64,000 nt of DNA from Mixophyes australis (lineage: Eukaryota > Chordata > Amphibia > Anura > Limnodynastidae). Shown piece after piece: positions 10,980 to 64,000 of the stretch (position 1 is the stretch's first letter; each line of letters opens with the position of its first letter). The notes beneath the pieces were generated by a model. That model did no database searches. It was given only the letters and a program-made list of their open reading frames with translations, and was not told the origin of the DNA. The stretch is taken from contig JAVHZZ010000003.1 of assembly GCA_036250195.1 (NCBI GenBank), forward strand, positions 331,251,694 to 331,315,693, in the 5' to 3' direction. The position numbers and the translations under genes were made by a program.

Positions 10980-11515
10980 TGTTCTTATACTTTTATTGTG
11001 TGTATTATGAAATGCTTATGTAAGCAAGACAAAGTCGGGATATGTCTATATACATATATAAGCTAGGCGTTGTCCCAGTGCTAACTGCGCATGTACTGGA
11101 AAGTCCCGTGCAACTTCACTGCTAATGTACTTGCGTAGAATAAGTGAAACTGTTACTCATAGCTGTACCAATACGAAGTTCTTAATTTTGCTTATACCTT
11201 ATATGTTAGTAATGCCCTTAGTTTCCTTTCTATAAAAGCTGGTTTTGTTGCGACACAAGTTGCCTCGTCCTGGACAGTCGGTAATAGCGCTAGTCGTTTG
11301 TCGAGAGAGAGTCCCTGGATAATTGCTGATTAAACATATTTCTAAGACAACTATCGAAGCTAAGTATGTTATTATATTTTTTACTTTGCAATAAAATATT
11401 GATATTTGATCTTTGTGATCACGATTCTGTAACTCCTTGCAACCTGAAAGAACCTGTAAAACGTTTCACCGGAAACAATGCAGTAGAAGCATTTAACGTG
11501 CATTGCCGAGTCGCA
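10980..11515 (+). repeat. Possible LTR fragment
   Basis: This stretch has an LTR-like order: a TATAAAAG box at about 11232, a TTGCGACACAAG-type leader region after it, and AATAAA at about 11390, ending where the LINE begins. I could not define TG/CA ends or a target duplication. It could be part of a retroviral or gypsy LTR, or unrelated DNA. Confidence 0.25.
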
Positions 11516-14284
11516 CATATCCCTCTTCCTTGACAACTTCGCTGCCTGGCTCCCTCACTACCTTTCCTCTGACCTTCCATCCATCATACTTGGCGACTTT
11601 AACATCCCTATTGACAACTGCTCTGACCCTGCCACCATCAAACTTCTCGCCCTCTCCACCTCACTAGGCCTCACCCAATGGACCTCTTTTCCCACCCACT
11701 CTCATGGTCACGCCTTGGACCTCGTCTTCTCTCATCTCTGTGACCTCTCTGACTTCTCTAACTCTCCCTTCCCACTCTCTGACCACCATCTCCTCTCCTT
11801 CACTCTCTCCTCTTGCCAAGCTCCCACCTCGCCTAAATCTACCTTCACTAGACGCAACCTTGATGGTATTGACCCTACTGCTTTCTCCTCCTCTCTCGAA
11901 ACTCTCCTCTCACCTCTTCCCTCCCTGACCTGCCCCAACCAGGCGTCCTCTCTCTACAACCTTTCCCTCACTACTGCCTTTGATGCTGTTGCCCCGGCCT
12001 CCTCTATCCACCAGCGCCGCCTCATTCCCTAACCCTGGCACTCCAACCTTACCCGCTTCCTCCAAAAGTGCTCTCGCACTGCTGAACGACTCTGGAGGAA
12101 ATCTCGCTCCCTGGCCGACTTCCTCCATTTTAAATTTATCCTCACCTCATTCTGCTCCGCCCTCTCCCTTGCTAAACAATCCTTCTTTAAGTCCCTCATT
12201 TCTTCTCACTCCTCCAATCCTCGCCGTCTCTTTGCCACCTTCAACTCCCTCCTCTCTCCATCCCGCCTTCCCTCTCCGCCTCTGACCTTGCCACCTTTTT
12301 CACTTCTAAAATCGAGGCCATCAGACTTAACTTCTCCTCCTCCCATGCCTCTCTTCCCGCCCTTTTCCCTCCCCCTCCCCCCAACATCTAACCCTGGTGC
12401 TCCTTCTGCCCCATCTCGGGTGAAGAAGTTCGCTCACTTATTCTATCCTCTCCACCCTCCACCTGTCCTCTCGACCCTATCCCCTCTCGCCTCCTTCATT
12501 GTCTCTCTTCCACTGCCTGCTCTTACCTCGCTCACCTCTTTAACCTTTCACTCTCCTCTGGAGTAGTCCCCTCCTCATTCAAACACGCTCTTTTCTCTCC
12601 TATCCTCAAAAAACCTAACCTTGACCCCATCTCACCTGCTAACTATCGCCCTATCTCACTTCTCCCATACACCTCCAAACTACTTGAGAGGATTGTCTAC
12701 AGCCGCCTCACCAAACACTTCTCGGACTACTCCCTCCTCGACCCTCTCCAATCAGGCTTCCACCCCCTCCACTCCACTGAAACTGCCCTGGCCAAAGTTA
12801 CCAACGATCTCTTATTAGCCAAATCCAAGGGTCACTTCTTCCTACTCATCCTCCTCGACCCCTCTGCGGCCTTCAACACCGTTGACCACCCCCTTCTGCT
12901 ACAAACTCTTCTCTCTCTTGGCCTATCTGGTTCTGTCCTCGCCTGGTTCACCTCATACCTCGCGAACCGCTCCTTCTCGGTATCCAAGTCTGGCTCCTCC
13001 TCCACCCCCTCCCCTCTCCCTGTTGGAGTCCCTCAGGGCTCTGTTCTCGGCCCTCTTCTTTTTTCGCTCTATACCTCCTCCCTTGGTGCTCTCATCTCCT
13101 CCTTCGTTCTTCAGTATCACCTTTACGCTGACGACATCCAACTCTACATCTCCTCGCCCGATCTCTCCCCCTCCCTTCTCTCTAGTGTTTCCGACTGCCT
13201 CTCGGCCATCTCCTCCTGGATGTCCTCACGCTTTCTTAAAATTAACATCTCTAAAACTGAAATAATTGTCTTTCCTCCCCCCAGGCTCCCCTTCCACCAT
13301 GACCTCTCTATCACTGTCAACAACACCTCCATCTCCTCTGTCACCCAACTTCGCTGCCTGGGCGTTATCTTCGACTCCTCTCTCTCCTTTACCCCCCACA
13401 TTCAATCCCTTGCCCAAGCCTGTCGCTTTCAACTTCGCAACATTGCCCGCATCCGGCCTTTTCTCTCTCAGGATGCCACCAAATCTATCATCCACGCTCT
13501 CATTATCTCACGCCTCGACTACTGCAACCTCCTCCTCACCGGCCTCCCCCTCTCCCGCCTCGCCCCCCTCCGCTCTATTCTGAATGCGGCTGCCAGACTC
13601 ATCTTCCTCTCTCGCCGCTCCTCCTCCACTTCCCCTCTCTGCCTTGCCCTACACTGGCTCCCCATCCCCTACAGAATCATCTTCAAACTCCTGACCACCA
13701 CATACAAGGCACTCTCCCAGTCTACTGCCCCCTACATCTCCAACCTCCTCTCCATTCACACTCCTGCCCGCTCCCTGCGCTCGGCCAATGACCGTCGCCT
13801 CTCCTCCTCTCTGATTACCTCTTCCCACTCCAGAATCAAAAGATTTCTCCCGGGCAGCCAACCTTCACTGGAATGACCTCCCTCGCTCCGTCCGTCTCTC
13901 TCCCACTCTAAGCTCCTTCAAACGGGCACTAAAAACCCACCTGTTCCTCAAAGCCTACCACCCTTCCACCTAACCCACTCTCCCCTCCCTCCCTCCTCCC
14001 GTCCCCTCTTCTCTCCTTTACATCAACTGGCCCCTTTTGTACCTGAGTTTTGTTCACCCTCCCTTAGGATGTAAACTCATTTGAGCAGGGCCCTCTTCCC
14101 TCCTGTGTCCTTACCTACTCTTCTGCTCCGTCTTTTCTGCATTAGCCTGCTTGGAGCTCCTGAATTGTTGGTATTTTTGTTTACTGCTCAGTAATGTTTT
14201 ACCCTGTACTGTCTATCGTCTGTGCATTGTACGGCGCTGCGGAACTCTTGTGGCGCCTAACAAATAAAGGATAATAATAATAAT
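11516..14284 (+). mobile_element. 5'-truncated L2-type LINE with ATA tail
   Basis: It reads as endonuclease C-terminal part (LGDFNIPID near 11,597, then LDLVFSHLCD and SDHHLLSF), connector ([12 protein letters not shown]), RT, and a C-terminal block ending near 13,970. A 3' untranslated region follows with CGGCGCTGCGGAA and AAATAAAGG, then an ATAATAATA microsatellite tail at 14269-14284. That tail type is characteristic of CR1/L2-group LINEs, which end in short repeats rather than poly(A). The plus strand is strikingly pyrimidine-rich. The 5' boundary is approximate. Confidence 0.85.
12400..13876 (+). pseudogene. L2-type LINE reverse transcriptase, mostly open
   Basis: One frame stays open for about 490 codons from near 12,400 to the stop at 13,876. 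It holds [12 protein letters not shown] (RT fingers), [13 protein letters not shown] (palm, first catalytic Asp kept; the usual AAFDTVDH reads AAFNTVDH), [16 protein letters not shown] and YADDIQLY at 13124-13147. The L2 thumb/C-terminal block follows ([35 protein letters not shown]). After 13,876 the family's usual ending ([17 protein letters not shown]) continues in another frame, so a single frameshift truncates the protein. Upstream, the endonuclease pieces lie in broken frames. This copy cannot be autonomous, but decay is limited compared with the two L1 copies in the window. Confidence 0.8.
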
Positions 14285-16494: not shown

Positions 16495-16510
16495 TGCTTA
16501 ATGCTAATGT
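16495..16510. repeat. Target site duplication, left copy
   Basis: TGCTTAATGCTAATGT here is repeated exactly at 23894-23909, on the other side of the Penelope-like element. Confidence 0.9.
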
Positions 16511-18030
16511 CAAAACAAATACACATAAACGGGGCGCTAGTTACCCTATAAAAATCGATCAAGATGCAGCTATCTAAACGGGATCTGGACCCGTCAAGGT
16601 ATAAAAACTAATGCAATAAAGTAAGATAGCGCAAAACTCAGATCGATATAAAATTTATTACAAATGCATGTGTATCAAAACATAATAAACATTTACTACA
16701 CTATAATCTGGTTAAATGATTACAATGTTGGAGGAGACCTGACAGTCATGGGACTAAATCAGTGGCATAGTATCGTTATATATGTCATAGTGAAAATATA
16801 AATAGTCCACTAGAGCAGTAACACTTAAGGTATGTAAAATGTGTCACATATAAACAAAAGACCTAGTTCAAAGAGCTTTCAGACACTGATAGATGTCCTG
16901 AATACCATGGAGATAAGCTGCTGGGAATATGATGTAATAGTGATTATCACTATGCAGATAGTTAAAGATCTCATCAAAGAGAGTCTAGTACACAAGTAAC
17001 AGCATGCAGTGAACAAAAACGATGAACAGGTAATTCCAATTGATAAAACGTGCTTAAATAGTCTCCAATTAGAACATTGATTGGAGTGTGAATTCAGAGG
17101 AATTGCAGAGGGCCTCCGTTAAGAGATCCGTCTCATTAAGTTTCCAGACTGGTTTGAATGTGCACCTCTATACAATAAATCTCCTCAAAATATCATATGA
17201 CAACAATCAAGTCCAAGCCGGTATGAGGATATAGCACGCTGCAAGTCGGGCTCAGCGTCCTCCAGCCGTAGTTTCATTCGTATTAGCATCCATTGAAATA
17301 GATAGTGAAAAGTGGTGAATAATCACATTGAGTTCAGTGTCCTCTGCCTGCAGATCAAACCATGTCGGCATCCGTTTTTCAAAAGAGGTGCAAAGATCGA
17401 TATGTAGTTAACAAGCAGAATGAGCTCAGTCCGACCCCGGGGTGTGGGAAAGAGAGTAGTATGTTTCTGCCACGTCTCTAGGTCTCTAAGTCTCCAGGTC
17501 TCCGATGGATAGGTGCACTTTGCCTGACGCGTTTCTCGGCACTGACTTGCCGTTTCCTCAGAGGCAATGATAAAACAGCCACCTGCAAGGGGGCTGTCAT
17601 ATACCCATCATAATCAGTCACGTGACCGGAACTATCCAATATGGAACAGAGTGTGCGTGTAACTCTGATTGAGCCAATATAATCCTACATGTCATTAATT
17701 CAAAAGTAAAATTAAACATTCCTACATTGTAAGCTACTGCATGACATTGAAATTTTTAAAAGAAAAGAAGGGGGAAGGAGAAGGGAGGGATACCAGGCTT
17801 AAAAATTTGCAGACCAATTGAATAATTGGTCCACAACATAAAAATAATGTATTTACACATATATCAAAGCTTATCCTACTTGAATATCCATAGTTACAAG
17901 TAATAATAATACTATGAGCCTAGTACAGATTTTCCTTAAAATGGATATGGATTAATATGGCCTGATACATGAACTTGGACACTTCAAAATATAAAGCAAA
18001 AAACTATTGGATAGCATATTTGTCGGGCAT
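16511..18030 (-). repeat. Penelope-like terminal repeat (3' copy)
   Basis: About 1.52 kb, repeated in direct orientation at an offset of 5,507 bp (22018-23537). It follows ORF2 on the coding strand and carries a hammerhead-like motif at 17520-17567. I noticed no mismatch between the copies. Confidence 0.93.
17520..17567 (-). ncRNA. Hammerhead-ribozyme-like motif (3' repeat copy)
   Basis: On the minus strand the order is TTGCCT (stem I 5' side), CTGAGGA (core CUGANGA), a CGGCA/TGCCG hairpin (stem II), GAAA, a very short CGCG stem III, TC, then AGGCAA, which pairs perfectly with TTGCCT. This is the type I hammerhead layout. Penelope-like elements are known to carry hammerheads in their terminal repeats. 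The stem II base next to the core is A-A rather than a G-C pair, so activity is uncertain. Confidence 0.7.
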
Positions 18031-18171
18031 CTTGGGTATATGTAGAAAACAGCCCTCACTAATTGGTATAATCACCAAACTAAAATATGGAAAAAGTTAC
18101 ATGCATTACTACTAAGTTGGTATCTATAAATGTATTAAAAAAAGGGTTGAACATTCTTGGAAATTGGAGCC

Positions 18172-18175
<4 letters not shown>

Positions 18176-18210
<35 letters not shown>
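18176..18210 (-). repeat. Poly(A) run on the coding strand of the Penelope-like element
   Basis: About 34 T on the plus strand between the ORF2 stop and the 3' terminal repeat. It is part of the 3' untranslated region. Confidence 0.85.
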
Positions 18211-18217
<7 letters not shown>

Positions 18218-18393
18218 TAACTAGCATCTATAAAATAGAATCCGGAATAAAGAGTAAAGAACAATGAAAAATAATAAATACAAAAATCAAATCAGCCTTT
18301 TGGAAACCACAAAAATAGTGTCAACATAGGACTCAAGAAGCCTCAACTATCTAAAAAACCCAACGATGTAAAGAGCGAACATAAGTAGTATAT

Positions 18394-21048
18394 TCAAACG
18401 TTATTAAGCTCTATACTGTCGTTCAGGCCATGCGGAGACATGGTATCGAGTTTGAAAATCCAAAATGCTTCACGTTTACACAACAGGTTGAACCTATTGC
18501 CTCCTCTCTTGGTTTTCTCGATGTGTTCTATTGCTCTTATTTTCAGTCCTGATAAATTACTATTTTGACAAACATTGATATGTGAAGATAGACTATGTGT
18601 TCTGATTTTATTGATTATGTTGCGTCTATGTTCCAGGAAGCGTGTGGCTAGTGTTCTAGTAGTCCGTCCTACATATTGGACTCCGCAGGAGCAGTTGATA
18701 AGATAGATTACAAAAGTAGATTGGCAATCCATAACTTTCTTGATAGAGAAACTTTCACCTGTTCTAAATGATGAAAAGTTGCACACTTTATGATCTGTGT
18801 AACTACATGTGATACATCTGAGTTTCCCACACTTATAGAACCCATTCGATCTACTGAGCCATCTAGTCGCCGGTTCAATAGACTTCGGAACATGATTGAT
18901 TTTGTCAAAATGTTTAAATAGACTCGGAGCTAATGTTTCTTTGAGGTTTCTAGATCTTTTAAAAACCACCATATTATTGGTCTTGATGTCATTACTTATA
19001 AAGTTATCCAATCTTAACAAAGAAACATTTTTATTAATGGCTCTTTTTATCTCACGTGCTGCACAGTTATACTGTGTAACGAATGTAAAGGTTCTAGAGT
19101 CATGTTGCATATCTTTTTTCTTGTTTGATTGAACCAGTAGCTCAGATCTATCAATTTTGTCCACATCTAAAAGCGCGTTATCCAAGATGGAATCAGGATA
19201 TCCCTGTTCCTGGAATGCTGTGTATAATTTTTTAGAGTGGGTTATGAACTCCTCAGGTTGTGAACAGTTTCTTTTGATACGTAAAAACTGTCCCTTGGGA
19301 ATGTTGTCTCTCCAAGGTTTGTAATGATTACTCTTATAGTGAAGAAAATTAAAAGCATCTATATCTTTGGAATAATTAGTGGTTGTTATTTGATTGTCAA
19401 CAATCTTAACTGTAATATCTAAAAAATTAATCGTTGTAGGGTGAAAACATGTGGTGAAACGAAGCCCAAAGGTATTAGAATTTAGATGGTCAAAAAATAG
19501 GTGCATGGTGGGGAGATCCCCATCCCAAATGAAAAAGAGGTCATCTATGTAACGGCCATAGAGGACCAGGTTCGCCGCGAAAGCAGAATCCCATATGTAC
19601 CGTTCCTCAAAAAGCCCCATATAGAGATTCGCATAACTCGGTGCGAACCTAGTCCCCATGGCCGTCCCTCTAATCTGCAAATAATATTTCGAATCAAACA
19701 AGAAATAATTATGATTCAAAATAAATTCAATGGAGAGCAATAGAAACTCTGAAAGTCTATCGTCAGAATTTTCATGTTTATTCAAGAAATATTTTACGGC
19801 CTCAAGGCCCAGATCGTGGGGTATATTAGAATAGAGGGCTTCAACATCACAGGTGATGAGATAAAAAGAGGGTTTCCAATTAATGCTGCAGATCAAACGT
19901 AGAAAGGTGGTGGTATCCTTAATATGGGATTTAAGTGCTATTACAAATGGTTGAAGATGAGTATCTACAAAAAATGACAAATTGCTAGTCAGTGCACCTA
20001 CACCGGAGATGATGGGTCTCCCCGGTGGGGACACAAGCGACTTATGAATTTTTGGTAAATGGTAGTATGTTGGTATAATTGGATGTTTTGAAAATAGAAA
20101 CCAATATGTTTCTTTGGAAATGATACTAGAAGTAAGTGCTTGGTCAAGTAAATTATGAAGTTTCTCCTGGAACAACAGGGTAGGATCATAGGACAATAGG
20201 ACATAAAAACGATCATTGTTCAGCTGTCTCATTGCTTCCACGTGATAATCTGCAACATCCTGTATCACTGTGCCTCCACCCTTATCCGCCGGTTTAACTA
20301 TTATGGTATTGTCTTCCATCAGATTTTTAATGGCTAATCGTTCTTGAGGAGTCAGATTATCCCTAAATGGTTTGTGTGAGGTTGATTCGCAGATATGTTG
20401 AAAGTCTTCCATAGTACTTTTGAAAAAACTCTCAATGAAAGGACCCCTATATTGCAGGGGATAAAAGTCAGAAGGATTTTTGAACTTGTGGACAGATGTA
20501 GAAGTATTAATATTGAATAGTTCAATCTCGGAATTGGAATCAGAATTCCAATTATCCCGTTGCAATGATTCCAACTCGGATAAGGCTATATTGTCACCAT
20601 CGTCCAAAACAATAGGAAGTAAATCGGTTTTCGCTTTTTTGATGGCCTTAATAGCGAAATAGCGTTTCCTACTTAGGGCTCTAGTGAATCTGTTCAGATC
20701 CACAAAAAGATTGAACAAATTAGGTTTAACTGTGGGTGCAAACTTAAGACCTTTTTGTAGCAACGATAAGTCAGCTTGTGTTAGTTGCTTAGAGGAGAGG
20801 TTAAATATACCCTTGCCACTTAATAACGACGTACGTTTTTTGTGTGTTTTAGTTGCACCTCCTCTAGAGCCTCGTATTCTTCCTCTCTTGTTCTTTTGAG
20901 AGTAGGTGAATTTAACTCTTCTGCTCTTAATACATGTGGATTGGGAGGGTGACCCTTCCCTAAAAAAGACACAGAGGAGGAGGGAGGAGGAAAGGATCCT
21001 ATAGAAACAGCGGTAGTTTGTGAGGCCATAGTGGTAACTGAACCACAC
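18394..21048 (-). CDS. Penelope-like reverse transcriptase with GIY-YIG endonuclease (ORF2)
   Basis: This is an uninterrupted 884-codon frame. Conserved sequence starts near residue 80 (GIFNLS). Motifs seen: KPADKGGG at 252-259, LPKIHK near 331, DVEALYSNIP at 401-410 (RT motif A, Asp401), GTAMGTRFAPSYANLYM at 461-477 (motif B), YIDDLFFIW at 500-508 (motif C, Asp502/503) and NFLDITV near 541. A Cys/His cluster follows (C740, C745, C748, H753). The GIY-YIG nuclease runs from about 780 to 876 (VIYLI..CGVQYVGRT, R803, H807, E860 in REAFWIFKL, N876). The protein should nick DNA and reverse-transcribe element RNA. The first ATG lies inside ORF1 in another frame, and the N-terminal 70 residues do not look conserved. 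Translation probably enters this frame by -1 shifting at 20835-20841 rather than at that ATG. Confidence 0.93.
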   Translation of the reverse strand: MWFSYHYGLTNYRCFYRILSSSLLLCVFFREGSPSQSTCIKSRRVKFTYSQKNKRGRIRGSRGGATKTHKKRTSLLSGKGIFNLSSKQLTQADLSLLQKGLKFAPTVKPNLFNLFVDLNRFTRALSRKRYFAIKAIKKAKTDLLPIVLDDGDNIALSELESLQRDNWNSDSNSEIELFNINTSTSVHKFKNPSDFYPLQYRGPFIESFFKSTMEDFQHICESTSHKPFRDNLTPQERLAIKNLMEDNTIIVKPADKGGGTVIQDVADYHVEAMRQLNNDRFYVLLSYDPTLLFQEKLHNLLDQALTSSIISKETYWFLFSKHPIIPTYYHLPKIHKSLVSPPGRPIISGVGALTSNLSFFVDTHLQPFVIALKSHIKDTTTFLRLICSINWKPSFYLITCDVEALYSNIPHDLGLEAVKYFLNKHENSDDRLSEFLLLSIEFILNHNYFLFDSKYYLQIRGTAMGTRFAPSYANLYMGLFEERYIWDSAFAANLVLYGRYIDDLFFIWDGDLPTMHLFFDHLNSNTFGLRFTTCFHPTTINFLDITVKIVDNQITTTNYSKDIDAFNFLHYKSNHYKPWRDNIPKGQFLRIKRNCSQPEEFITHSKKLYTAFQEQGYPDSILDNALLDVDKIDRSELLVQSNKKKDMQHDSRTFTFVTQYNCAAREIKRAINKNVSLLRLDNFISNDIKTNNMVVFKRSRNLKETLAPSLFKHFDKINHVPKSIEPATRWLSRSNGFYKCGKLRCITCSYTDHKVCNFSSFRTGESFSIKKVMDCQSTFVIYLINCSCGVQYVGRTTRTLATRFLEHRRNIINKIRTHSLSSHINVCQNSNLSGLKIRAIEHIEKTKRGGNRFNLLCKREAFWIFKLDTMSPHGLNDSIELNNV

Positions 21049-21914
21049 GGGTCCTCTGTGGGTTGACTGTTATGTGAAGTACTGTTGATGGTGCCTGATG
21101 TGATACTGGCACGGTTCTCTGACAAAGAGGTATTCATTTTGCTGTTCCTTTGTAGAAACTCTGAGGCGGAGGTATGTAAGCGCGTATTGGAACCGTAATT
21201 GTACTGTTCCCTGACAGAACCCTTTCTCTGTAATTGTCCGGACCGAGTCGATCTATTAGGACTTATGTCCCGTGGTCCGTATATGTCCCCAGAAGTTGAT
21301 TTGTGGGATTTAGTAACAAAATTAGGATAATCAACTTTAGATCTACTCCTACTTCTAGGGTGTCTGCCAGAGGGTCTGTTGTAAGACCTAGTTCTCTCCA
21401 TATCATAATCCTCACAATCTCTCCTGAATTTAGCTTCCTTACGTGATATCAAGGATCGTTCAGATTCAACCATACGTCTATTGATCTTTAGATCTCTTTC
21501 TTTGAAACTTTCATGATTCTCAAAAGGTTTCAAGGATTCCTGAATCTTTTCAATTTCTTTTTGCGTGTTATCTATTTTACAATTTCTATACTTAATTAAC
21601 AGTTTCATCAAACTCATCGAACAGTTACCTAAAATAGTATTCCATTCATTGGTAAAGCAGTTGTCATCCTGAAAAGAGGCAGTTTTAAATATACGCAAAC
21701 CTCTTGGGATGATGTTGTTATCTACATACTTCTGGAGGGAGATTTGATCCCACCAGTGTCTGGTTTCTATTAGGCATAAAGTTTCAAGCTTATTGAAAAG
21801 ACGATACATATCTACATCATTATTGTAGGCAATTTTGGGAGGTGAAGGAATCACACGTGTGAGGTAACCCTGCCTCCTCTCCAGCCTGTTATGAACACAT
21901 TGAAGTGGTGCCAT
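20820..21914 (-). CDS. Penelope-like element ORF1, function unknown
   Basis: This 364-codon frame starts just downstream of the 5' terminal repeat and overlaps the RT frame by 229 bp. The N-terminal part (about 30-110) is hydrophilic with a WWDQISLQKYV motif. Residues 110-175 are Lys/Glu-rich and likely coiled-coil. A basic Ser/Arg-rich stretch follows near 180-195 (RHPRSRSRSK), then a Ser/Thr/Asn/Pro-rich linker. This composition suggests an RNA-binding, self-associating chaperone-like protein, by analogy with other retroelement ORF1 products; I recognise no catalytic domain. The frame lies +1 of the RT, with a slippery heptamer five codons before its stop, so ORF1 is probably made both alone and as the N-terminal part of a fusion of about 1,170 residues. 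Confidence 0.82.
   Translation of the reverse strand: MAPLQCVHNRLERRQGYLTRVIPSPPKIAYNNDVDMYRLFNKLETLCLIETRHWWDQISLQKYVDNNIIPRGLRIFKTASFQDDNCFTNEWNTILGNCSMSLMKLLIKYRNCKIDNTQKEIEKIQESLKPFENHESFKERDLKINRRMVESERSLISRKEAKFRRDCEDYDMERTRSYNRPSGRHPRSRSRSKVDYPNFVTKSHKSTSGDIYGPRDISPNRSTRSGQLQRKGSVREQYNYGSNTRLHTSASEFLQRNSKMNTSLSENRASITSGTINSTSHNSQPTEDPCGSVTTMASQTTAVSIGSFPPPSSSVSFLGKGHPPNPHVLRAEELNSPTLKRTREEEYEALEEVQLKHTKNVRRY
20835..20841 (-). promoter_or_regulatory. Probable -1 ribosomal frameshift site (A AAA AAC)
   Basis: On the coding strand the heptamer AAAAAAC is read in ORF1 as ACA AAA AAC, so its first base is the third base of a codon. This is the register needed for tandem -1 slippage. A -1 shift here enters the RT frame directly, upstream of its conserved start (GKGIFNLSS). 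The ORF1 stop follows five codons later. I did not identify a downstream pseudoknot with confidence. Confidence 0.7.
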
Positions 21915-22015
21915 AGTGATGTCGCTGAGGGAAAATAAACCCCCTTATAAAGCTCCAATATCCAAAGAATGAAATAAGCTGCCCCCAATGCAGCCAGAAA
22001 AAAAGAATTTACAAT

Positions 22016-23537
22016 GTCAAAACAAATACACATAAACGGGGCGCTAGTTACCCTATAAAAATCGATCAAGATGCAGCTATCTAAACGGGATCTGGACCCG
22101 TCAAGGTATAAAAACTAATGCAATAAAGTAAGATAGCGCAAAACTCAGATCGATATAAAATTTATTACAAATGCATGTGTATCAAAACATAATAAACATT
22201 TACTACACTATAATCTGGTTAAATGATTACAATGTTGGAGGAGACCTGACAGTCATGGGACTAAATCAGTGGCATAGTATCGTTATATATGTCATAGTGA
22301 AAATATAAATAGTCCACTAGAGCAGTAACACTTAAGGTATGTAAAATGTGTCACATATAAACAAAAGACCTAGTTCAAAGAGCTTTCAGACACTGATAGA
22401 TGTCCTGAATACCATGGAGATAAGCTGCTGGGAATATGATGTAATAGTGATTATCACTATGCAGATAGTTAAAGATCTCATCAAAGAGAGTCTAGTACAC
22501 AAGTAACAGCATGCAGTGAACAAAAACGATGAACAGGTAATTCCAATTGATAAAACGTGCTTAAATAGTCTCCAATTAGAACATTGATTGGAGTGTGAAT
22601 TCAGAGGAATTGCAGAGGGCCTCCGTTAAGAGATCCGTCTCATTAAGTTTCCAGACTGGTTTGAATGTGCACCTCTATACAATAAATCTCCTCAAAATAT
22701 CATATGACAACAATCAAGTCCAAGCCGGTATGAGGATATAGCACGCTGCAAGTCGGGCTCAGCGTCCTCCAGCCGTAGTTTCATTCGTATTAGCATCCAT
22801 TGAAATAGATAGTGAAAAGTGGTGAATAATCACATTGAGTTCAGTGTCCTCTGCCTGCAGATCAAACCATGTCGGCATCCGTTTTTCAAAAGAGGTGCAA
22901 AGATCGATATGTAGTTAACAAGCAGAATGAGCTCAGTCCGACCCCGGGGTGTGGGAAAGAGAGTAGTATGTTTCTGCCACGTCTCTAGGTCTCTAAGTCT
23001 CCAGGTCTCCGATGGATAGGTGCACTTTGCCTGACGCGTTTCTCGGCACTGACTTGCCGTTTCCTCAGAGGCAATGATAAAACAGCCACCTGCAAGGGGG
23101 CTGTCATATACCCATCATAATCAGTCACGTGACCGGAACTATCCAATATGGAACAGAGTGTGCGTGTAACTCTGATTGAGCCAATATAATCCTACATGTC
23201 ATTAATTCAAAAGTAAAATTAAACATTCCTACATTGTAAGCTACTGCATGACATTGAAATTTTTAAAAGAAAAGAAGGGGGAAGGAGAAGGGAGGGATAC
23301 CAGGCTTAAAAATTTGCAGACCAATTGAATAATTGGTCCACAACATAAAAATAATGTATTTACACATATATCAAAGCTTATCCTACTTGAATATCCATAG
23401 TTACAAGTAATAATAATACTATGAGCCTAGTACAGATTTTCCTTAAAATGGATATGGATTAATATGGCCTGATACATGAACTTGGACACTTCAAAATATA
23501 AAGCAAAAAACTATTGGATAGCATATTTGTCGGGCAT
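22016..23537 (-). repeat. Penelope-like terminal repeat (5' copy)
   Basis: Direct copy of 16511-18030, upstream of ORF1 on the coding strand, so it should hold the promoter. The second hammerhead-like motif lies at 23027-23074. Confidence 0.93.
23027..23074 (-). ncRNA. Hammerhead-ribozyme-like motif (5' repeat copy)
   Basis: Identical to the motif at 17520-17567, at the same place in the other direct repeat. Two motifs per element would allow processing of tandem or read-through transcripts. Confidence 0.7.
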
Positions 23538-23542
23538 ATTTG

Positions 23543-23893
23543 TCTGCATAGTGATAATCACTATTACATCATATTCCCAGCAGCTTATCTCCATGGTATT
23601 CAGGACATCTATCAGTGTCTGAAAGCTCTTTGAACTAGGTCTTTTGTTTATATGTGACACATTTTACATACCTTAAGTGTTACTGCTCTAGTGGACTATT
23701 TATATTTTCACTATGACATATATAACGATACTATGCCACTGATTTAGTCCCATGACTGTCAGGTCTCCTCCAACATTGTAATCATTTAACCAGATTATAG
23801 TGTAGTAAATGTTTATTATGTTTTGATACACATGCATTTGTAATAAATTTTATATCGATCTGAGTTTTGCGCTATCTTACTTTATTGCATTAG
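23543..23893 (+). repeat. Inverted stub of the Penelope terminal repeat
   Basis: This 351-bp piece is the reverse complement of 16608-16958 (and of the equivalent part of the 5' copy). It joins the 5' repeat through a few filler bases around CATATTTGTC. Such inverted partial copies are common at the 5' end of Penelope-like insertions and reflect how they integrate. Confidence 0.92.
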
Positions 23894-23909
23894 TGCTTAA
23901 TGCTAATGT
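23894..23909. repeat. Target site duplication, right copy
   Basis: Exact repeat of 16495-16510, directly after the inverted stub of the Penelope-like element. Confidence 0.9.
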
Positions 23910-25047
23910 AACAGACCAGTAAACTTTAATTTAAATTAGAATATATAGATTTAGAGCAGATAATTGTTTCTTCAAAAGATGTATTAAAGCATCGCAGAAG
24001 CCACCGGAAAAACTGATTTAGGGCTCTGGGGGGGAGGAGCCACTTGAATAAACTACAGCTTTTAACATAGAATAAATATATGTGGCTGGAGCCTCCACAA
24101 ATCTTAACCTGGCTATTTTAACACAGGTTTTCACATTAAACTGCAAAATAAGTCACACACTTTATATTAAATTAAAACTGTCACAGTGCTTGATTTTCGC
24201 TATAAACGTATTTTAGTATAATATCAATTAAAGTCAATAGGATTTAACATTTCAATAATTAGGTCAGATTTGTTTTTTGTTTTGCTTATAATACTTGGTT
24301 TAACGTGTTTAAACTTTACTCCAGGTTAATCATTCTAAATTATGATCCGCTATTGTAGAAACATTCAAAAAAATGCATGTACATTTGTGTCTTGAGGTGT
24401 TAAGTGTTAACCCTTCGATTGCTGGTGTGGGCATTGCTAACCTGTGTGTGCCAGTGTGCGACAGTATATTGGTGTCCTATTGCCCTTATTCAGTAGGTGG
24501 TGGCAGAACCTAGGGGTGTATGGGTGTGAGAGTGCTGTTTGGGGATGATTCAGCAGATCTATAACCTGTGTGATAGGTGAGAGAAATATTGAGCGCTGGA
24601 ATCTCGTGTAACCCCATACAGTAAACGCCCAAAGACAGGGAAGCTGGGAGAGCATTCGTGACAAAATGTATTAATGTGTTAAATTCAGAATCAATTACAA
24701 TGGTTCTGTAATGTTAATACAGAAAGAATTGTGGAAATTAATTACTGTTGGTAATTTCAATTTATGTTCAGGGGAAATTGTGAGTTATTTGAAAAAAGTT
24801 CAAGGCTGCCAATATTTTTTACCAAAATTATATTGTTGCACTTAAGTGTACAAAATTGTACCACTTGTGCAAATACTACTATTTTATGAACATATGAAGA
24901 TAGATACACTATTTTTATACGTGCATATATGCATCCTTTCTTATGTTTGGAGCACAAATGCATCCACTTCTAAGTCTTTTGCATAACTGCATATGTGTGT
25001 AAATGGTGTAGATGATAATAAGGAACTAAGAAAGGTGAATGTGAGCT
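23910..25047. other. Unassigned intergenic DNA
   Basis: AT-rich and without genes. The 24,390-24,670 segment has GAGCGCT-containing repeat-like sequence that could be an old retroelement end, but I cannot support a class. Confidence 0.4.
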
Positions 25048-33274: not shown

Positions 33275-33484
33275 TGTCACGGGCACTAGGAGTCTTTACC
33301 CAGGGATCACCAGATGGTAGGTTTACCAGAGCAATGTAGATGGTAATAGCGTACTCTGGTAGCTGGGTGATCACGGAACATGAAATGATGGCCGATGAGA
33401 TGCTCAGGAAAGTCTATGACTAGCAACACTGGTAATAATGAGGTAATAATACACAAGGAACTGTATGGACAAGGAACGTGAAGG

Positions 33485-33750
33485 TAGTCAGTGGTCTGCG
33501 ATAGCAAGTTGTACCACTGCTATAGTGAGGAGGAATGTCCAACAGAAACAAGGAGGTGATGAGAGTCAGCGGTCTGCGGGTAGCAAGTTGTACCGCTGTC
33601 TGAGTGAAGGAATGGAATCCAAGTGGAGGTATCCGGGTAGTCAGTGGTCTGCGGTAGCAAGTTGTACCACTGCTATGTGAGAGGATAATGGAACAGGTGA
33701 TACCGGAAACAGGGATCAGTGGTCTGACATCAGCAAGTTGTACCACTGAA
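33485..33750. repeat. Tandem repeats in the gypsy LTR, array 1 (also at +4330)
   Basis: Four diverged units share TCAG(T/C)GGTCTGCG.TAGCAAG and TTGTACC(A/G)CTG, beginning near 33488, 33574, 33639 and 33716. Each has an internal short palindrome (CAGTGGT / ACCACTG). The same array lies at 37815-38080. Confidence 0.8.
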
Positions 33751-34509
33751 TATATATGTGAGGAAGTGCACAAGGGAAGACTGCAACACAGGATATACAC
33801 AGGCACCTTATACACGATCCACAGTAATATGCACAATATAGATATATATATATATAAATGACTGAGCAGGTCTGCAATCTAGGAAGTCTCTTGAAGTAGT
33901 CCAGCACAATGATAACACAGTCAATGATAGCAATAGACTCAGCGGATAGCAGACTCCAGAGAGAACCAAACACAGTCCAGCAAGATATGCAATACACAGC
34001 ACAGTCAATGAGAAGTATGCATACCGTGGTTCAGCAGTAGCAGTCAGATGGGAATGCAGCGGTACCTGAGCGGCTGGAGACCGACTGGATAGGAAGTCCC
34101 TGGATAGGTGAGGCAGCGGTCTAGCAGGTGCAGAGCACAGGTGAGTAGACCAACAGGGACACAAATCCACAGGAGTCAGCAACACGTGGAACTGGACTCA
34201 GAAGGGACCCAGGAGAATGGAGATGATCCAGCAGAGGGTAGTAGATGAAATACAAATCCAATGCTGTCAGGAGGGTAGAGACCAGTGGGACACGTGAAGG
34301 CGTGGAGAGCGGATCAGCAGGAGATGGACGATAGCGCTGACCACAGCAGCAGGACTCAGCGGCACACGGAGGTAACCAGTAGCAACCACAGGAACCAACA
34401 GCGATGGGACACCGGAGTGCAGCGCAGGCCAGGAGCTGTTGATCACGAAGTGTAGCAGATAGTAATGCAAGCGGCAGTCTCGAGGAAGATACAACAGAGA
34501 TGAGGTAAG

Positions 34510-35320: not shown

Positions 35321-37591
35321 TCAGGATGGCGGACGGCCACGGTTCCTAAATGTCCGGGAAGAGGCACTCACGGTCCGGTGAGTGACAGTACCCCCCCTTT
35401 TAAAGGTGGGCACAGAACGCCTGGAACCGGGCTTGTCCGGATTTTTGGAGTAAAACTTCTTCAAAAGGGCAGGAGCATTAAGATCTTCAGCTTTGATCCA
35501 AGAGCGCTCCTCAGGACCAAAGCCCTTCCAATGAACGAGGAAGTGGAGGACTCCTCGCGAAATTTTTGCGTCTAGTACCTCGGTAATCTCGAAATCCTCC
35601 TCCTGATGGACTTGAACTGGCTGGGGAGCTGAGGGAGGAGTTGAGAAACGGTTGATAATAAGAGGTTTGAGCAAGGATACATGGAAGGCATTAGAAATCC
35701 GAAGATTCTTAGGAAGAAGGAGTTTCACACATACTGGATTGATAACTTGAATGATCCTATATGGACCAATAAAACGAGGGGCGAATTTCATGGATGGAAC
35801 CTTCAAACGAATATTTTTTGTGGATAACCAGACACGATCTCCAATTTTTAGTGGTGGAATAGCCCGCCTCTTCTTATCAGCGAAAGATTTATATTTGACA
35901 GATGTCTTCTTTAAACAGGTTCTGACCTGAGACCAGATATTTTTAAAGGTCTGACAAACAGTTTCCACCGCAGGAACTTGGGTGGGCGGGAGGGCAGGAA
36001 ATTCCGGAAAAGACGGATGGTGACCGTGAACCACCAGCACTTGACTTTTTGAAGATGACTCCTGAGATCCATCTTCAACGTCCGATGACGTCATGAACGC
36101 CCGATGAGGAGGAAGGCGTTCAGACTGAACTTTATCACACAGATCCGTAGATGAAGGATCTTGTGGAGGAGGACCTGGTGGAATAGACGAATGCTGTCTT
36201 TTGAATGAAACCACTTGGGAGAGACAACGATGATGACATTCAGTTCCCCAAGATGTAACTCGAGGAGTGCGCCAGTCAATCTGGGGAGAGTGACACTGAA
36301 GCCATGGAAGGCCTAAGACAATCGGACTTGTCGTAACAGGAAGGATCAAAAACGATATTTCTTCATGATGCAGGGCACCAATCTGAAGGGTTACTGGAGA
36401 CGTACTCTGGGTGATGAGACCGTTGATGAGACGTGATCCATCTATAGCCGTCACAGTAATGGGTGTTTTTAAGGTAATCACTGGTAGAGACCATTGATTT
36501 ACTAATGATTTGGAAATAAAATTTCCTGCTGCTCCGGAATCAATCAATGCCTGTGACTCAAAGGTTTTGGTAGCACAGGAAATCGTAACGTCAAAGGCGC
36601 AGACTTTAGATTTCATGGAAGATGGAGAGGACTCCAGGAACCCTAACCTTATCTCCCCAGTATTGGTTAGAGCCCGGCATCTCCTGGGACAAGAATTGAG
36701 CATATGCGTAGAATCGGCACAATAGATACAAAGTCTATTCTTTATTCTTCGGTCCCTCTCCTCTAAAGTTAATTTGGAGCGACCTATCTCCATGGGTATC
36801 ACCGGAGATGAAGCTGGGTGAAATTGAGGATTTGAGAGAGGAGGTGTTTTAACCGAAGTTGTTTTCTCAGGTTCTCTTTCACGAAACCTCAGGTCTACCC
36901 GATGGCAAAGAGAGATCAAATCTTCTAAAGAGGAGGGTAGTTCTTGTGAAGTCAGTGCGTTTTTAATTTTATCGGAAAGCCCCTGCCAGAAGGCGGCAAC
37001 TAGTGCTTCAGTGTTCCACTGAAGTTCAGAGGCTAAGATCCTAAATCGAATGACGTACTGAGCCACAGTGCGAGATCCTTGGCGAAGACGGAGAATGCTG
37101 GATGCAGCGGAAATGACACGACCTGGTTCATCGAATACACTTCGGAACGTGGAAATAAACTCGGCACTATCCTGTAACAATGGATCGTTTCTTTCCCACA
37201 GAGGGGAAGCCCATGCGAGAGCTTGTCCAGAAAACAATGAAATAAGATAGGCCACTCTGGAACGATGGGTAGAAAAATTTTGAGGTTGGAGCTCAAAATG
37301 AACTGAGCATTGAGTAAGAAAACCCCTACAAGTTTTGGGGTCTCCATCGTATTTTGACGGAGTAGGCAGGTGAAGCGTGGAAGCTGTAAACACCTGGGAT
37401 GGCACTGGGGAAACGGAGGAAGGCACAGGAGCATCAACAGTAGTTGTGGCATCTTGTACAGACGGTCTTTGGGAGGCTAAGGCCTGGTAACACCGCAGTA
37501 AATGCCGTTGGCGAACTTCCTGTTGCTCAATACGAGTAACCAGATGCCGCAGCATCTCTTTGGCTGTAGGTTCCGAATCTGGGTCTGTCAT
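35321..37591 (-). CDS. Gag-protease joined in frame to integrase C-terminus and chromodomain
   Basis: 756 codons with no interruption. In order: coiled N-terminus; Gag capsid region (about 70-235, LPTPSKYDGDPKTCRGFLTQ, FSGQALAWASPLW); CCHC zinc knuckle C288-X2-C-X4-H-X4-C301; aspartic protease (LIDSGAAGNFIS, Asp351; ILPV..IVLGLPWL near 416-431); a linker (490-523); then the integrase GPF/Y region (HPSFPE at 525, IGDRVWLSTKNIRLKVPSMK, FAPRFIGPY near 603-611, NAFHVSLLKPL); and a chromodomain (about 667-712, EITEVLDAKISRG, FLVHWKGFGPEERSWI). RT, RNase H and the integrase zinc/DDE core are absent. The join lies between an LPPHR motif that normally precedes RT and the HPSFPE motif near the integrase end. 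The start ATG is 13 nt after the LTR. The product could assemble and bind chromatin but needs polymerase and integrase in trans. Confidence 0.93.
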   Translation of the reverse strand: MTDPDSEPTAKEMLRHLVTRIEQQEVRQRHLLRCYQALASQRPSVQDATTTVDAPVPSSVSPVPSQVFTASTLHLPTPSKYDGDPKTCRGFLTQCSVHFELQPQNFSTHRSRVAYLISLFSGQALAWASPLWERNDPLLQDSAEFISTFRSVFDEPGRVISAASSILRLRQGSRTVAQYVIRFRILASELQWNTEALVAAFWQGLSDKIKNALTSQELPSSLEDLISLCHRVDLRFREREPEKTTSVKTPPLSNPQFHPASSPVIPMEIGRSKLTLEERDRRIKNRLCIYCADSTHMLNSCPRRCRALTNTGEIRLGFLESSPSSMKSKVCAFDVTISCATKTFESQALIDSGAAGNFISKSLVNQWSLPVITLKTPITVTAIDGSRLINGLITQSTSPVTLQIGALHHEEISFLILPVTTSPIVLGLPWLQCHSPQIDWRTPRVTSWGTECHHRCLSQVVSFKRQHSSIPPGPPPQDPSSTDLCDKVQSERLPPHRAFMTSSDVEDGSQESSSKSQVLVVHGHHPSFPEFPALPPTQVPAVETVCQTFKNIWSQVRTCLKKTSVKYKSFADKKRRAIPPLKIGDRVWLSTKNIRLKVPSMKFAPRFIGPYRIIQVINPVCVKLLLPKNLRISNAFHVSLLKPLIINRFSTPPSAPQPVQVHQEEDFEITEVLDAKISRGVLHFLVHWKGFGPEERSWIKAEDLNAPALLKKFYSKNPDKPGSRRSVPTFKRGGTVTHRTVSASSRTFRNRGRPPS
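35388..35401 (-). promoter_or_regulatory. Polypurine tract
   Basis: AAAAGGGGGGGTAC on the minus strand lies directly before the 3' LTR. It is inside the coding frame, where it encodes part of FKRGGT. Confidence 0.85.
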
Positions 37592-37602
37592 GGCCTGATC
37601 TT
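37591..37602 (-). promoter_or_regulatory. Presumed self-priming primer-binding site
   Basis: AAGATCAGGCCA begins 2 nt after the 5' LTR and overlaps the first base of the ORF start codon. There is no TGG-type tRNA-binding site here. The sequence is fully complementary to 39531-39542. Confidence 0.65.
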
Positions 37603-39530
37603 ACTGTCACGGGCACTAGGAGTCTTTACCCAGGGATCACCAGATGGTAGGTTTACCAGAGCAATGTAGATGGTAATAGCGTACTCTGGTAGCTGGGTGA
37701 TCACGGAACATGAAATGATGGCCGATGAGATGCTCAGGAAAGTCTATGACTAGCAACACTGGTAATAATGAGGTAATAATACACAAGGAACTGTATGGAC
37801 AAGGAACGTGAAGGTAGTCAGTGGTCTGCGATAGCAAGTTGTACCACTGCTATAGTGAGGAGGAATGTCCAACAGAAACAAGGAGGTGATGAGAGTCAGC
37901 GGTCTGCGGGTAGCAAGTTGTACCGCTGTCTGAGTGAAGGAATGGAATCCAAGTGGAGGTATCCGGGTAGTCAGTGGTCTGCGGTAGCAAGTTGTACCAC
38001 TGCTATGTGAGAGGATAATGGAACAGGTGATACCGGAAACAGGGATCAGTGGTCTGACATCAGCAAGTTGTACCACTGAATATATATGTGAGGAAGTGCA
38101 CAAGGGAAGACTGCAACACAGGATATACACAGGCACCTTATACACGATCCACAGTAATATGCACAATATAGATATATATATATATAAATGACTGAGCAGG
38201 TCTGCAATCTAGGAAGTCTCTTGAAGTAGTCCAGCACAATGATAACACAGTCAATGATAGCAATAGACTCAGCGGATAGCAGACTCCAGAGAGAACCAAA
38301 CACAGTCCAGCAAGATATGCAATACACAGCACAGTCAATGAGAAGTATGCATACCGTGGTTCAGCAGTAGCAGTCAGATGGGAATGCAGCGGTACCTGAG
38401 CGGCTGGAGACCGACTGGATAGGAAGTCCCTGGATAGGTGAGGCAGCGGTCTAGCAGGTGCAGAGCACAGGTGAGTAGACCAACAGGGACACGAATCCAC
38501 AGGAGTCAGCAACACGTGGAACTGGACTCAGAAGGGACCCAGGAGAATGGAGATGATCCAGCAGAGGGTAGTAGATGAAATACAAATCCAATGCTGTCAG
38601 GAGGGTAGAGACCAGTGGGACACGTGAAGGCGTGGAGAGCGGATCAGCAGGAGATGGACGATAGCGCTGACCACAGCAGCAGGACTCAGCGGCACACGGA
38701 GGTAACCAGTAGCAACCACAGGAACCAACAGCGATGGGACACCGGAGTGCAGCGCAGGCCAGGAGCTGTTGATCACGAAGTGTAGCAGATAGTAATGCAA
38801 GCGGCAGTCTCGAGGAAGATACAACAGAGATGAGGTAAGTCTGCAGTGCACAGGGCAGCGGATAGGAATCAGCTGGCAGTCACGATGATGAACACAGGCG
38901 AGTTGCAAGCAGAAGACTGTAGTGCACGGAGGCAGTGGATAGTAATCAGCTGGCAGTCACGATGATGAACACAGGCGAGTTACCAGCAGGAGACTGTAGT
39001 GCACGGAGGCAGCGGATAGGAATCAGCTGGCAGTCACGATGATGAACACAGGCGAGTTGCAAGCAGGAGACTGTAGTGCACGGAGGCAGCGGATAGGAAT
39101 CAGCAAACAGACTTGATGAGAAGCAGGTGAGTGAAGTAAAAGCTGGAGTGCACGGAGGCAGCGGATAGCAATGAGCAAACAGTCACATTGAAATAAAATA
39201 ACGTTGAAGTGGTTTAGAAGACTGTAGTGCACGGAGGCAGCGGATAGGAATCAGCAAACAGTCACGATGATACAGTTGATGGTAGAAGTGGTATGGGAAC
39301 CACAGTAGTAGAAGTGGTTTAGAAGACTGTAGTGCACGGAGGCAGCGGATAGGAATCAGCAAACAGTCACGATGATACAGTTGATGGTAGAAGTGGTATG
39401 GGAACCACAGTAGTAGAAGTGGTTTGGAAACCACAGGGATAGAAGTGGTTTGGAAACCACAGGAATCAGCAGCGCTGAATACACGAGGAATACAGGAACA
39501 CCTTCAGAGACTCATGGGGAATGAGACTCC

Positions 39531-52600: not shown

Positions 52601-53861
52601 AGTTTTCCCCACTTGACACTAAGCTAACACACATATGCAGCTCTGACACCTCCTCTGTATAACTTTCAGCTGTAATTCATCCCTCTTCAGTTGGGATGGA
52701 CTATAACACTCTTTTCTAATGTTCTCTCTGCCCCTCCTAGAATTTTTACAACTTTTTCTTTGTAGCAGCCCTCTGGCTCCTGAGGGTCTCTTTAAATAAA
52801 CTCTAGGCAAGCTGTCACCTGCAGCAACTCTACCCTCTTTCAATGGGGGTGTTTGGTGCTTTTGCTTCTCCTTATACAGGGGATTCTTTCCCCTTAACAT
52901 ACTTGTACTTCACTATGCAGATGACAGTTGCTCTCCCCTTCTATCGCTGATCTACCCTTATTAGGTGGTCTCAATGCCAGGCTTTCCTGACATGGGGACT
53001 TTCCTCCTATTTGTATCACTGCACCATGTGGCAGCCATCCTTTGGTGACACAGCTACGTGCATCACTGCCTATCTCCTTCCCACGAAGCCCGGCCCCTCA
53101 ACTCCTAGCTTATATTTATATTTTCTTAGAAAATACTCTTCTTCACACATTGTAAAAATGACATCATGTATAGGTAGCGCTGACATTAGAAATTTCTGAT
53201 TCCATGCTGATAATAATCGCAAAATAAAAATGTATGATATATAAATGACTTATACACACTGACAATTCTGTTGCAGCTACAATCACATTATGCTATCCCT
53301 TGGCATAGCAAAACAGAACTTTAATGTTTCAACCAGGAGAAACTTTGCAACTGTGAATTTAACTGGCGAGTACCTATTGTACCCTAACATAATAATTCTT
53401 TATGAGGTGCACAATTGTTTATGTGTATATTTACAAGGAATAAATTAAACACTTTTACAATAAACTTGTGTTAAGTAAAAAAAACATTTGACAATATAAA
53501 CACACATAGGGGATGAATCGATAAATGTAAAAGACTGTAAATGCTTTGGTTAATCATTTTTAATTGAACCAATTATATACAAATGCATTTCCTTTGTTTA
53601 GTTGCTAGTCTAAGCCTGTGTACTGTATGCAGAAAAAGACTAAACAATTGCTATGCCTGGAACAAAATAAATGCTGACAAATAATGGAAAGCAAGAGAAC
53701 AGTACCCTTGTGGCCTATTGCATTGAAGTAAATTTAGTTATTGCAGATGGCATTTGTGCAGAGGAGAGCGGGGAGAGGACAGTTTTTATTCTTTGCCTAT
53801 TACAATTTTGCTCAGATTAGTTTGGCTCGGAGAGAGAGGAAGGTTCCAAAGTGACAGCAAC
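52601..53861. other. Unassigned DNA upstream of BFSP1
   Basis: This should contain the BFSP1 promoter and 5' untranslated region. I see no convincing TATA box close to the start codon. The reading frame of exon 1 is open back to 53754, but the extra residues do not resemble filensin. Confidence 0.4.
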
Positions 53862-54235
53862 ATGTACAAAACTAGTTACTTGCGAGAAATTCGCAAAGAG
53901 AAATATGAAAGGTCTGATGGCTTTGATGAACAAAGTGTTGTAGATATTAGAAACCTTGGCTTATCGCAGGCACAAGGACTGGAAAACTTGCAGGAGCTAA
54001 ATGAGAGGTTTGCCAATTACATAAATCGGGCTAGAGTACTAGAACAAAGAAATGCCATCTTTAGGAAGCAGTTGGAGACCTTCCAAAGAATGGATGAGAT
54101 TTCCGGCCTGGAAGAAGCTTTTGCAGAACAAATTGAGCTGAATCGGCAGAGAATCCGTGAGTTATCTTCCGATCAGTCCAAACTTGAGAGAGAGTACAAA
54201 GATGCCCAGAGAATGGTTGACGAATACAAGAACAA
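53862..54235 (+). CDS. BFSP1: Filensin (beaded filament structural protein 1), coding exon 1
   Basis: This exon encodes the first 124 residues and two bases of codon 125. The start MYKTSYLREIRKEKYE fits the filensin start, which is why I chose 53862 over the upstream in-frame ATG at 53754; its context (AACATGT, A at -3) is fair. A short head of about 38 residues is followed by rod coil 1A (about 40-75) with the intermediate-filament signature ELNERFANYINRARVLEQRN. Linker and early coil 1B follow (LEEAFAEQIELNRQRIRELS). The donor GTGAGT lies at 54236-54241; read-through would stop at once (TGA 54237-54239). Filensin assembles with phakinin into beaded filaments of lens fibre cells. Another intermediate-filament gene is possible, but the head sequence and the RMDEISGLEEAFAEQIE-type text fit filensin best. 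Confidence 0.9.
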
Positions 54236-63092: not shown

Positions 63093-64000
63093 ACAATCTG
63101 GCCAAATACATACGCCATTAAAATCTCGCAAAAATGTCGGCCAAATCCGAAGGTCTCCTCGGATTTCAGCCGCTAGACGAAACCGCGCATGCGGCCTCGT
63201 TATCCAAGCTGTGGCTAATTGTAACCTCCTGCAGAAAATCCTTCCCATAGGAATGACTCTGCACGCAAAATTCAATAATCTCAGCAGAGACTGTATTCGC
63301 CACAAGGAACTAGTGTCCGAGCTAAGAACCTCTACAATAATTGATCCCAACTTATCAATCTTTTCCTTGTGTAGATGACAACATCCAACAATGGTGTCTA
63401 TTTCTATACCCAAGAAAGATAAGCAAACAGCCGGACCTTCAGTTATGTTGTGGGCTATAGGAACTCCCATAACAGCAAAAAGAGATTTTGCCACAAACAA
63501 GACCTCCAAACAAACAATAGATGAGCCCAGGGCCATGAACAAAAAATCATCCAAATAATGCACTAAACCAACGTGGCCCGTTCCTGCTTGTATAAACCAA
63601 TGCAGGAAGGAGCTAAAGCGCTCAAAGAACGCATAAGATACCGAACAGCCTATAGGAAGGCAGCGATCAATATAATAGCCATCCTGCAGTTTAAAACCCA
63701 TAAATCTAAAATATTCTGGGTGGAGAGAAAGAAGCCTAAAGGCGGATTTTATGTCCAGCTTAGCTAAAAGCGAACCCCTTCCATATGATCTAACTAGGGC
63801 AAGTGCCTCCTCAAAAGACTGGTAAGTAACTGAGCTGTGTCTCACATCAATGACATCGTTCACTGAAAAACTCGGGGGGTGAGATAGGTGCTGAATTAAG
63901 TGATATTTACCTGCCACTTTTTTTGGTACATTTTGAAAATGGGGGAAACTCAAAAGGACCAATCATGTGTCCCAAGGCAACCTCTTTATTCACCTTGGAA
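63093..64000 (-). pseudogene. DIRS-type reverse transcriptase, partial
   Basis: The open frame begins near 63,962 and runs through PKKVAGKYHLIQHLSHPPSF, SLLAKLDIKSAFRLLSLHP (motif A, Asp in KLDIKSAFR), CLPIGCSVSYAFFERFSSFL (motif B) and VHYLDDFLFMALG (motif C, YLDD). It continues with the LSFLGIEIDT and RIQSLLRLLNFACRVIPMGR blocks typical of DIRS RT. Catalytic residues look intact. The expected preceding text (GHMIGPF type) is in another frame at the window edge. At 63,092 the frame runs into the inserted LTR, which adds about 60 foreign codons before a stop. Without that insertion the same frame continues into RNase H. Confidence 0.83.

Follow-up and report, generated by a model that had tools for sequence, protein, structure and literature searches.

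A Penelope-like element (PLE) on the minus strand of a 64,000-nt stretch of the Mixophyes australis genome (contig JAVHZZ010000003.1, positions 331,251,694 to 331,315,693; this whole stretch is called the window) very probably joins its first open reading frame (ORF1) to a frame for reverse transcriptase (RT) and a putative GIY-YIG endonuclease (EN) by a −1 frameshift at T TTT TTA, 20967-20961, a reading to which we give a probability of about 0.88 from sequence comparison. ORF1 would supply a helical, coiled-coil-like domain with a long tail, and RT and the GIY-YIG endonuclease would lie in the −1 frame. Most ribosomes would read ORF1 through to its stop at 20822-20820, and a minority would move one base back on U UUU UUA (20967-20961) and read on in the RT frame; the product of the slip would be an ORF1-RT-EN fusion, comparable to the Gag-Pol that retroviruses make beside Gag. 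The slippage of the ribosome as such, its efficiency and the action of the fusion as a working RT are what we infer from the comparisons below. The parts of the junction are as follows.

20820-21914, minus strand: ORF1, 364 aa, from ATG 21914 to TAA 20822-20820, ending in NVRRY.
18394-20967, minus strand: frame for RT / GIY-YIG (ORF2), whose coordinates, taken from the slip site, give 857 aa; it has no own ATG start.
20961-20967, minus strand: T TTT TTA, the proposed −1 frameshift heptamer; ORF1 reads TCT TTT TTA (S-F-L).
20943-20960, minus strand: small hairpin GGGAAGGGUCACCCUCCC directly 3' of the heptamer, in near relatives only and weakly supported.
20835-20841, minus strand: AAAAAAC, in register, explained as two RT-frame lysine codons (AAA AAA).
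20823-20960, minus strand: doubly coding stretch, by codon-position signatures and alignments, carrying the ORF1 tail (LKRTREEE...NVRRY) and the basic stretch of the RT frame (QKNKRGRIRGSRGG...HKKRT).

As a first-pass annotation of this DNA had stated, both frames are open and ORF1 ends at the TAA given above; the RT frame runs from stop to stop over 18394-21069 (minus strand, 891 residues). The overlap of 229 bp given there holds if GTG 21048 is taken as the start of ORF2, and amounts to 250 bp from stop to stop. The first 70 residues of ORF2 had also been called ATG-derived, a description that does not fit the sequence, as no ATG of the RT frame lies in the overlap and the first methionine of this frame is residue 220 of 891. 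When the ORF1 frame was scanned from its upstream stop for in-register heptamers of the form X XXY YYZ, four were found, starting at 21942, 21225, 20967 and 20841, the last two of them in the overlap. The annotation had chosen the last, AAAAAAC at 20841-20835, correctly noting that ORF1 reads it as ACA AAA AAC and that a −1 slip there enters the RT frame; it had missed TTTTTTA, a second canonical in-register heptamer 126 nt upstream. A −1 frameshift from ORF1 into RT/GIY-YIG, as it had proposed, is well supported by comparison, with T TTT TTA and not AAAAAAC as the site.

The comparison covered 70 junctions, window included, all from one genome (3.13-Gb assembly). Set A consists of the best 30 of 40 scored DNA matches to window positions 20500-21300, the window copy (L009) among them, at 69-100% DNA identity; the query includes the heptamer, which makes up 7 of its 801 bases. 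Set B was drawn from 55 scored matches to the RT protein of the window; 20 of them, at 59-63% protein identity, were taken, with outliers in open-frame length deliberately included. For set C, 20 junctions were chosen before being viewed; they come from loci matching P0001, a gene model from Ascaphus that is labelled calcium uptake protein 2 but has RT-like sequence. TTTTTTA was found in the −1 register in 27/30 junctions of set A, 13/20 of set B and 14/20 of set C, a total of 54/70. The conservation among related copies that had been looked to for AAAAAAC is found at TTTTTTA, which is kept across divergent families, whereas AAAAAAC varies or is lost among the relatives.

On a tree of 29 set A loci (L027 omitted), the 7-nt window of the heptamer required 2 parsimony changes, where L029 and L038 differ; the AAAAAAC window required 6, and the median of 290 windows was 16. 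That F-L is always written TTT TTA is unexpected, because in five pooled ORF1s, site included, TTT accounts for 45 of 65 Phe codons and TTA for 37 of 138 Leu codons. The ORF1 stop lies 48 codons past the site in 25/30 set A loci and 45-49 codons past it in every one of the 27 loci of sets B and C that have the heptamer in register. A count of sequence patterns in the genome gave 49 places in the near group where six pyrimidines precede AGG at roughly the expected distance and 0 for the controls, a count in which T6 is not separated from other pyrimidine runs.

The same loci bear on AAAAAAC, at which a frameshift is very improbable; the refuting condition set by the annotation applies to this heptamer. 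It is a canonical in-register heptamer, and AAAAAAC or AAAAAAT, itself a possible heptamer, stands at its place in 28/30 near loci (AAAAAAC in 11/30, AAAAAAT in 17/30; lost in 2/30). However, 13 of the 20 more distant loci of set B have no such heptamer there, and 4 of 15 representatives have AAG for one of the lysines. The downstream folding suggested for this site showed no notable structure in the window (z-score +0.83; pseudoknots were outside the search). In addition, a slip at AAAAAAC would bypass the conserved KRGRxRGSRGG, and the RT frame is constrained already upstream of it; the N-terminus of ORF2, which had been described as unconserved, is thus conserved between the two heptamers. 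As a slip site AAAAAAC is very probably to be rejected, its A run being two lysine codons, although certain copies might gain some minor slippage from it.

Where the RT frame begins was judged from its stops. Among the 27 loci of sets B and C with the heptamer in register, 19 have an RT-frame stop 0-21 nt upstream of it, and in six of the 27 (L079-81, L085, L088, L089) this stop touches the heptamer, so that the RT frame begins exactly there; in L030-L038 the stop is 9 nt from the heptamer. From the slip on, the RT-frame peptide (FFR...KRGRxRGSRGG...KK) is recognisable in 15/15 representatives, which were selected for having TTTTTTA and of which L026 has an internal stop. Initiation within the RT frame, be it at a non-AUG codon, by reinitiation after the ORF1 stop, or in some deep families at an ATG just after the heptamer, could draw on an RT-frame ATG seven codons past the heptamer start in 9 of the 27 deeper in-register loci. 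This ATG overlaps an ORF1 Trp codon, though, and none of 20 long window-group copies has an RT-frame ATG up to AAAAAAC. Such initiation would also leave unexplained why the RT-frame peptide can be recognised right from the heptamer (FFR), and we regard it as a very small chance.

Selection on the two frames was followed by pairwise differences at the three codon positions among 16 representatives (L014, L027 and L029 dropped). After the ORF1 stop, the RT frame differs by.278/.114/.491, and within 20904-20842 by.226/.107/.296; from this signature the RT frame is translated upstream of AAAAAAC. In the last four codons of ORF1 the ORF1 frame differs by.163/.081/.554, and this constraint means that ORF1 truly ends at its stop. 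The same constraint speaks against ordinary decay, in which an indel in a former single ORF would have left two frames. Some copies (L067-69, L073, L075) do have one frame, and elsewhere there are relatives with a predicted single ORF that includes the ORF1 domain. Against this, families that do not rank among the 55 best window-RT matches, and so fall below about 59% protein identity, show the same offset and heptamer and an equal distance to the ORF1 stop, and three copies keep both frames whole: the window, L042 and L051, with ORF1 of 364, 365 and 347 aa and RT frames of 857, 857 and 854 aa from the heptamer. Decay therefore hardly comes into question as an explanation. An equally faint prospect is slippage of a transcribing or reverse-transcribing polymerase on the T run, which would add a U and thereby fuse the frames. 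The run is homopolymeric and indels between copies are found in C and A runs, but polymerase slippage needs neither the T TTT TTA phase nor the final A, and both are kept. This holds even where the run is T7 instead of T6 (L065, L087, L093), as TTA still ends in phase, which fits tRNA slippage.

Splicing is a serious rival, now weakened, and we consider it improbable. The conserved TTTTTTAG|G would be a 3' splice acceptor (AG 20961-20960) with the heptamer as its pyrimidine tract, and a spliced mRNA would join an upstream exon to the RT frame. Copies of the window group do have a long C/T-rich tract before TTTTTTAG and a purine-rich stretch after it, and PLEs are said to retain introns in the part of the literature consulted (PMC3846280). 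Yet the tract upstream of the T run varies in set A, and in set C, 11 of 14 in-register loci keep T6A even though 8-14 of the 20 nt before it are purines. C has taken the place of a T in the run in 0/29 set A loci (L027 omitted), the changed loci having A (L029) or G (L038), and L089 reads TTTTTTATTAAAG, where TTTTTTA is followed by TT, so that there is no AG. No well-scoring GT donor common to eight ORF1s was found, donors upstream of the ORF1 ATG being outside the search; on a donor matrix with a maximum of about 8.6 bits, the best common in-phase donor reached 0.7-2.3 bits, and it encodes a conserved WWD. As a separate observation, the doubly coding CAAAAGAACAAGAGAGGAAGA at 20898-20878 is nearly invariant in DNA across the near families; it is purine-rich, as splicing enhancers are.

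Several findings weigh against frameshifting at T TTT TTA. The compared copies are related to one another, the doubly coding windows at 20898-20884 score as low as the heptamer in the parsimony count, and of 21 long copies (window + 20) only 3 have kept the two frames intact. The RT-frame ATG seven codons past the start of the site, in 9/27 in-register loci of sets B and C, also counts on this side. Nine of the 70 junctions have no intact TTTTTTA site: L027 is unrelated sequence, L064 is unrelated upstream, L029 and L038 have one base changed, and L082, L086, L090, L091 and L098 have N/K-rich linkers. ORF1 is broken upstream in some in-register copies (L076, L093), in which the heptamer is therefore retained by descent. 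TTTTTTA is out of register in a further 7/70 (L067-69 and L073-75 in set B, L083 in set C), and five of the 70 (L067-69, L073, L075) read ORF1 and RT in one frame, so that fusion free of slippage occurs. Three of these, L067-69 (G000 C4, C10 and C5), form one 1177-aa open frame with the T run intact upstream and have C11 in place of C10 in the C run, one C more than L065; L073 has one A more than L072 at the lysine pair, and L075 one T more than its relatives. The one-frame copies show that the fusion can become permanent, and some of them may simply be damaged. Finally, no common 3' stimulatory structure was found with 12 families pooled, in folding that did not search for pseudoknots.

As to local structure, alignment of seven near families with the hairpin abutting the heptamer gave z-scores of −2.4 (40 nt), −1.85 (80 nt) and −0.45 (130 nt), and 2 of 100 shuffles were as low as the 40-nt value. 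Single-sequence z-scores over 30 nt ranged from −4.3 to +1.0 in the 15 representatives, and at 50 nt two of 10 deep loci (L095, L097) were below −2. Zero spacing between heptamer and hairpin is unusual compared to known frameshift sites.

The five families with N/K-rich linkers (L082, L086, L090, L091, L098) have an RT frame that is open upstream, with 867-1054 aa. Their linkers recall the N-rich inserts of rotifer Penelope, as far as these are described in the part of the source consulted (PMC3846280).

For the ORF1 protein, a fold model (mean pLDDT 57) predicts helices at residues 32-65, 85-131 and 135-171, with confidence for about 32-171; the tail, which holds the slip site, is of low confidence and predicted to be disordered. 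Comparison of this fold with the PDB led to 112 matches at E ≤ 10 and none at E ≤ 0.001, and ORF1 alone found none among 919 candidates of the protein collection at E ≤ 0.001. A six-row profile gave 2 matches at E ≤ 0.01 among 4323 candidates. Conversely, a profile built from the N-termini of seven single-ORF relatives (predicted proteins in which an N-terminal domain is joined to RT; longest contigs 2.8-4.6 kb) retrieved ORF1 at 29.5 bits, compared to 8.2 bits for the best of 1000 shuffles. By this sequence match the N-terminal domain that these relatives carry in their predicted single ORF is a homologue of ORF1, and therefore a fusion product makes sense. In one Dendrobates gene model, P0015 (1197 aa), an ORF1 homologue is likewise joined to RT as predicted, and S-F-L stands where the shift site would be. 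The best protein relatives that carry names are mostly from frogs, and no relatives turned up in viral contigs.

The window RT-frame protein has the motifs PADKGG, LPKIHK, YIDD and QYVGRT. Of 22 aligned proteins, 17 match RVT_1 at E ≤ 0.01, the window protein not being one of them, and 9, the window protein included, match GIY-YIG at that threshold; the GIY-YIG match of the window protein, C-terminal to RT, scored 17.5 bits (E 0.0053), under the cut-off of 22.6.

HIV-1 gag-pol resembles this junction in the direction of the shift, with an upstream ORF, RT downstream and a 0-frame stop shortly after the site. Its shift site U_UUU_UUA is the identical heptamer according to the examined part of a 2016 frameshifting review (PMC5009743); unlike HIV-1, the window element is a PLE, no protease family turned up in Pfam scans of ORF1 and the RT frame, and no strong common 3' stem was found. 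Two-ORF non-LTR (long terminal repeat) retrotransposons such as L1 and TART also place an ORF1 or gag before an RT ORF. For these, the same part of that review gives separate initiation (L1; presumed for TART) and, for HeT-A, frameshifting in gag expression, but it names no U_UUU_UUA overlap of the PLE kind for L1, TART or HeT-A and does not name Penelope (PMC5009743). Canonical PLEs (Penelope, Poseidon, Neptune) share with the window element RT, tandem pseudo-long terminal repeats (pLTRs) with an inverted fragment and, probably, the GIY-YIG-type C-terminus, and the N-terminal region of single-ORF relatives is homologous to its ORF1; unlike in canonical PLEs, its ORF1 is separate and an own ATG start is missing from its RT frame. 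Where consulted, the literature describes canonical PLEs as carrying EN and RT in a single ORF (PMC11167929), and a study that analysed 11 frog Penelope sequences does not have Penelope among the two-ORF clade examples in the part seen (PMC7140322). The literature searched contained no report of frameshifting as an expression strategy of PLEs; Repbase and the 2006 PLE survey lay outside it, and two ORFs or frameshifting may have been mentioned earlier for frog PLEs.

Taken more widely, it is likely that an old amphibian PLE lineage uses the HIV-type U_UUU_UUA to fix the ratio between ORF1 and an ORF1-RT-EN fusion. This Gag/Gag-Pol economy would have arisen independently in the third eukaryotic retroelement class and would work without a conserved conventional 3' stem, some lineages having gone back to a single frame or to an N/K-rich linker. 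If so, the Gag/Gag-Pol solution also evolved in the telomerase-related class of retroelements, ORF1 alone would have a job for which it is needed in excess over RT, perhaps RNA binding or particle assembly, and the site would be an easily tested control point for PLE activity. There is a consequence for annotation as well, as many of the retrieved protein records have their first residue within the RT domain or shortly ahead of it, which leaves out the ORF1 part.

The element as a whole is complete, with pLTR repeats, an inverted pLTR fragment, a target-site duplication and two open frames:

16495-23909, minus strand: whole PLE insertion, from the sequence around both ends.
16495-16510 and 23894-23909: 16-bp direct repeat TGCTTAATGCTAATGT flanking the PLE, read as target-site duplication.
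22013-23540, minus strand: upstream pLTR copy, a direct repeat of 16506-18033.
16506-18033, minus strand: downstream pLTR copy, a direct repeat of 22013-23540.
23543-23894, plus strand: inverted pLTR fragment at the 5' end of the PLE, 100% identical over 352 bp to 22114-22465 and 16607-16958.

The two 1528-bp pLTR copies, 5507 bp apart, have a single difference, at the third base from the edge; the insertion is probably recent, because the pLTRs are practically identical. A hammerhead ribozyme in the pLTR occurs in some PLEs and is not universal, according to the part of the source consulted (PMC11167929). Rfam listed none here: at gathering thresholds the whole window had no match, and a search of 21900-24000 up to E 5 gave two weak matches, neither of them a ribozyme. 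Another copy, L039 (G000:C2:154133500-154140500), matches the window element at 99.9% identity across the 801 bp of the junction query (as L010), with its RT frame whole and its ORF1 interrupted.

Elsewhere in the window, features were named by eye. On the plus strand, 11487-13876 has frames of a LINE-type element with endonuclease and RT motifs. Two identical 152-aa frames (33420-33878 and 37750-38208) are likely LTRs, and the gag/chromodomain-like 759-aa frame between them (35321-37600) points to a Ty3-type element. An RT-like frame of another retroelement lies at 62913-63962 (minus strand), and the frame at 53727-54239 (plus strand), which is like the first coil of an intermediate-filament protein, is probably a host exon.

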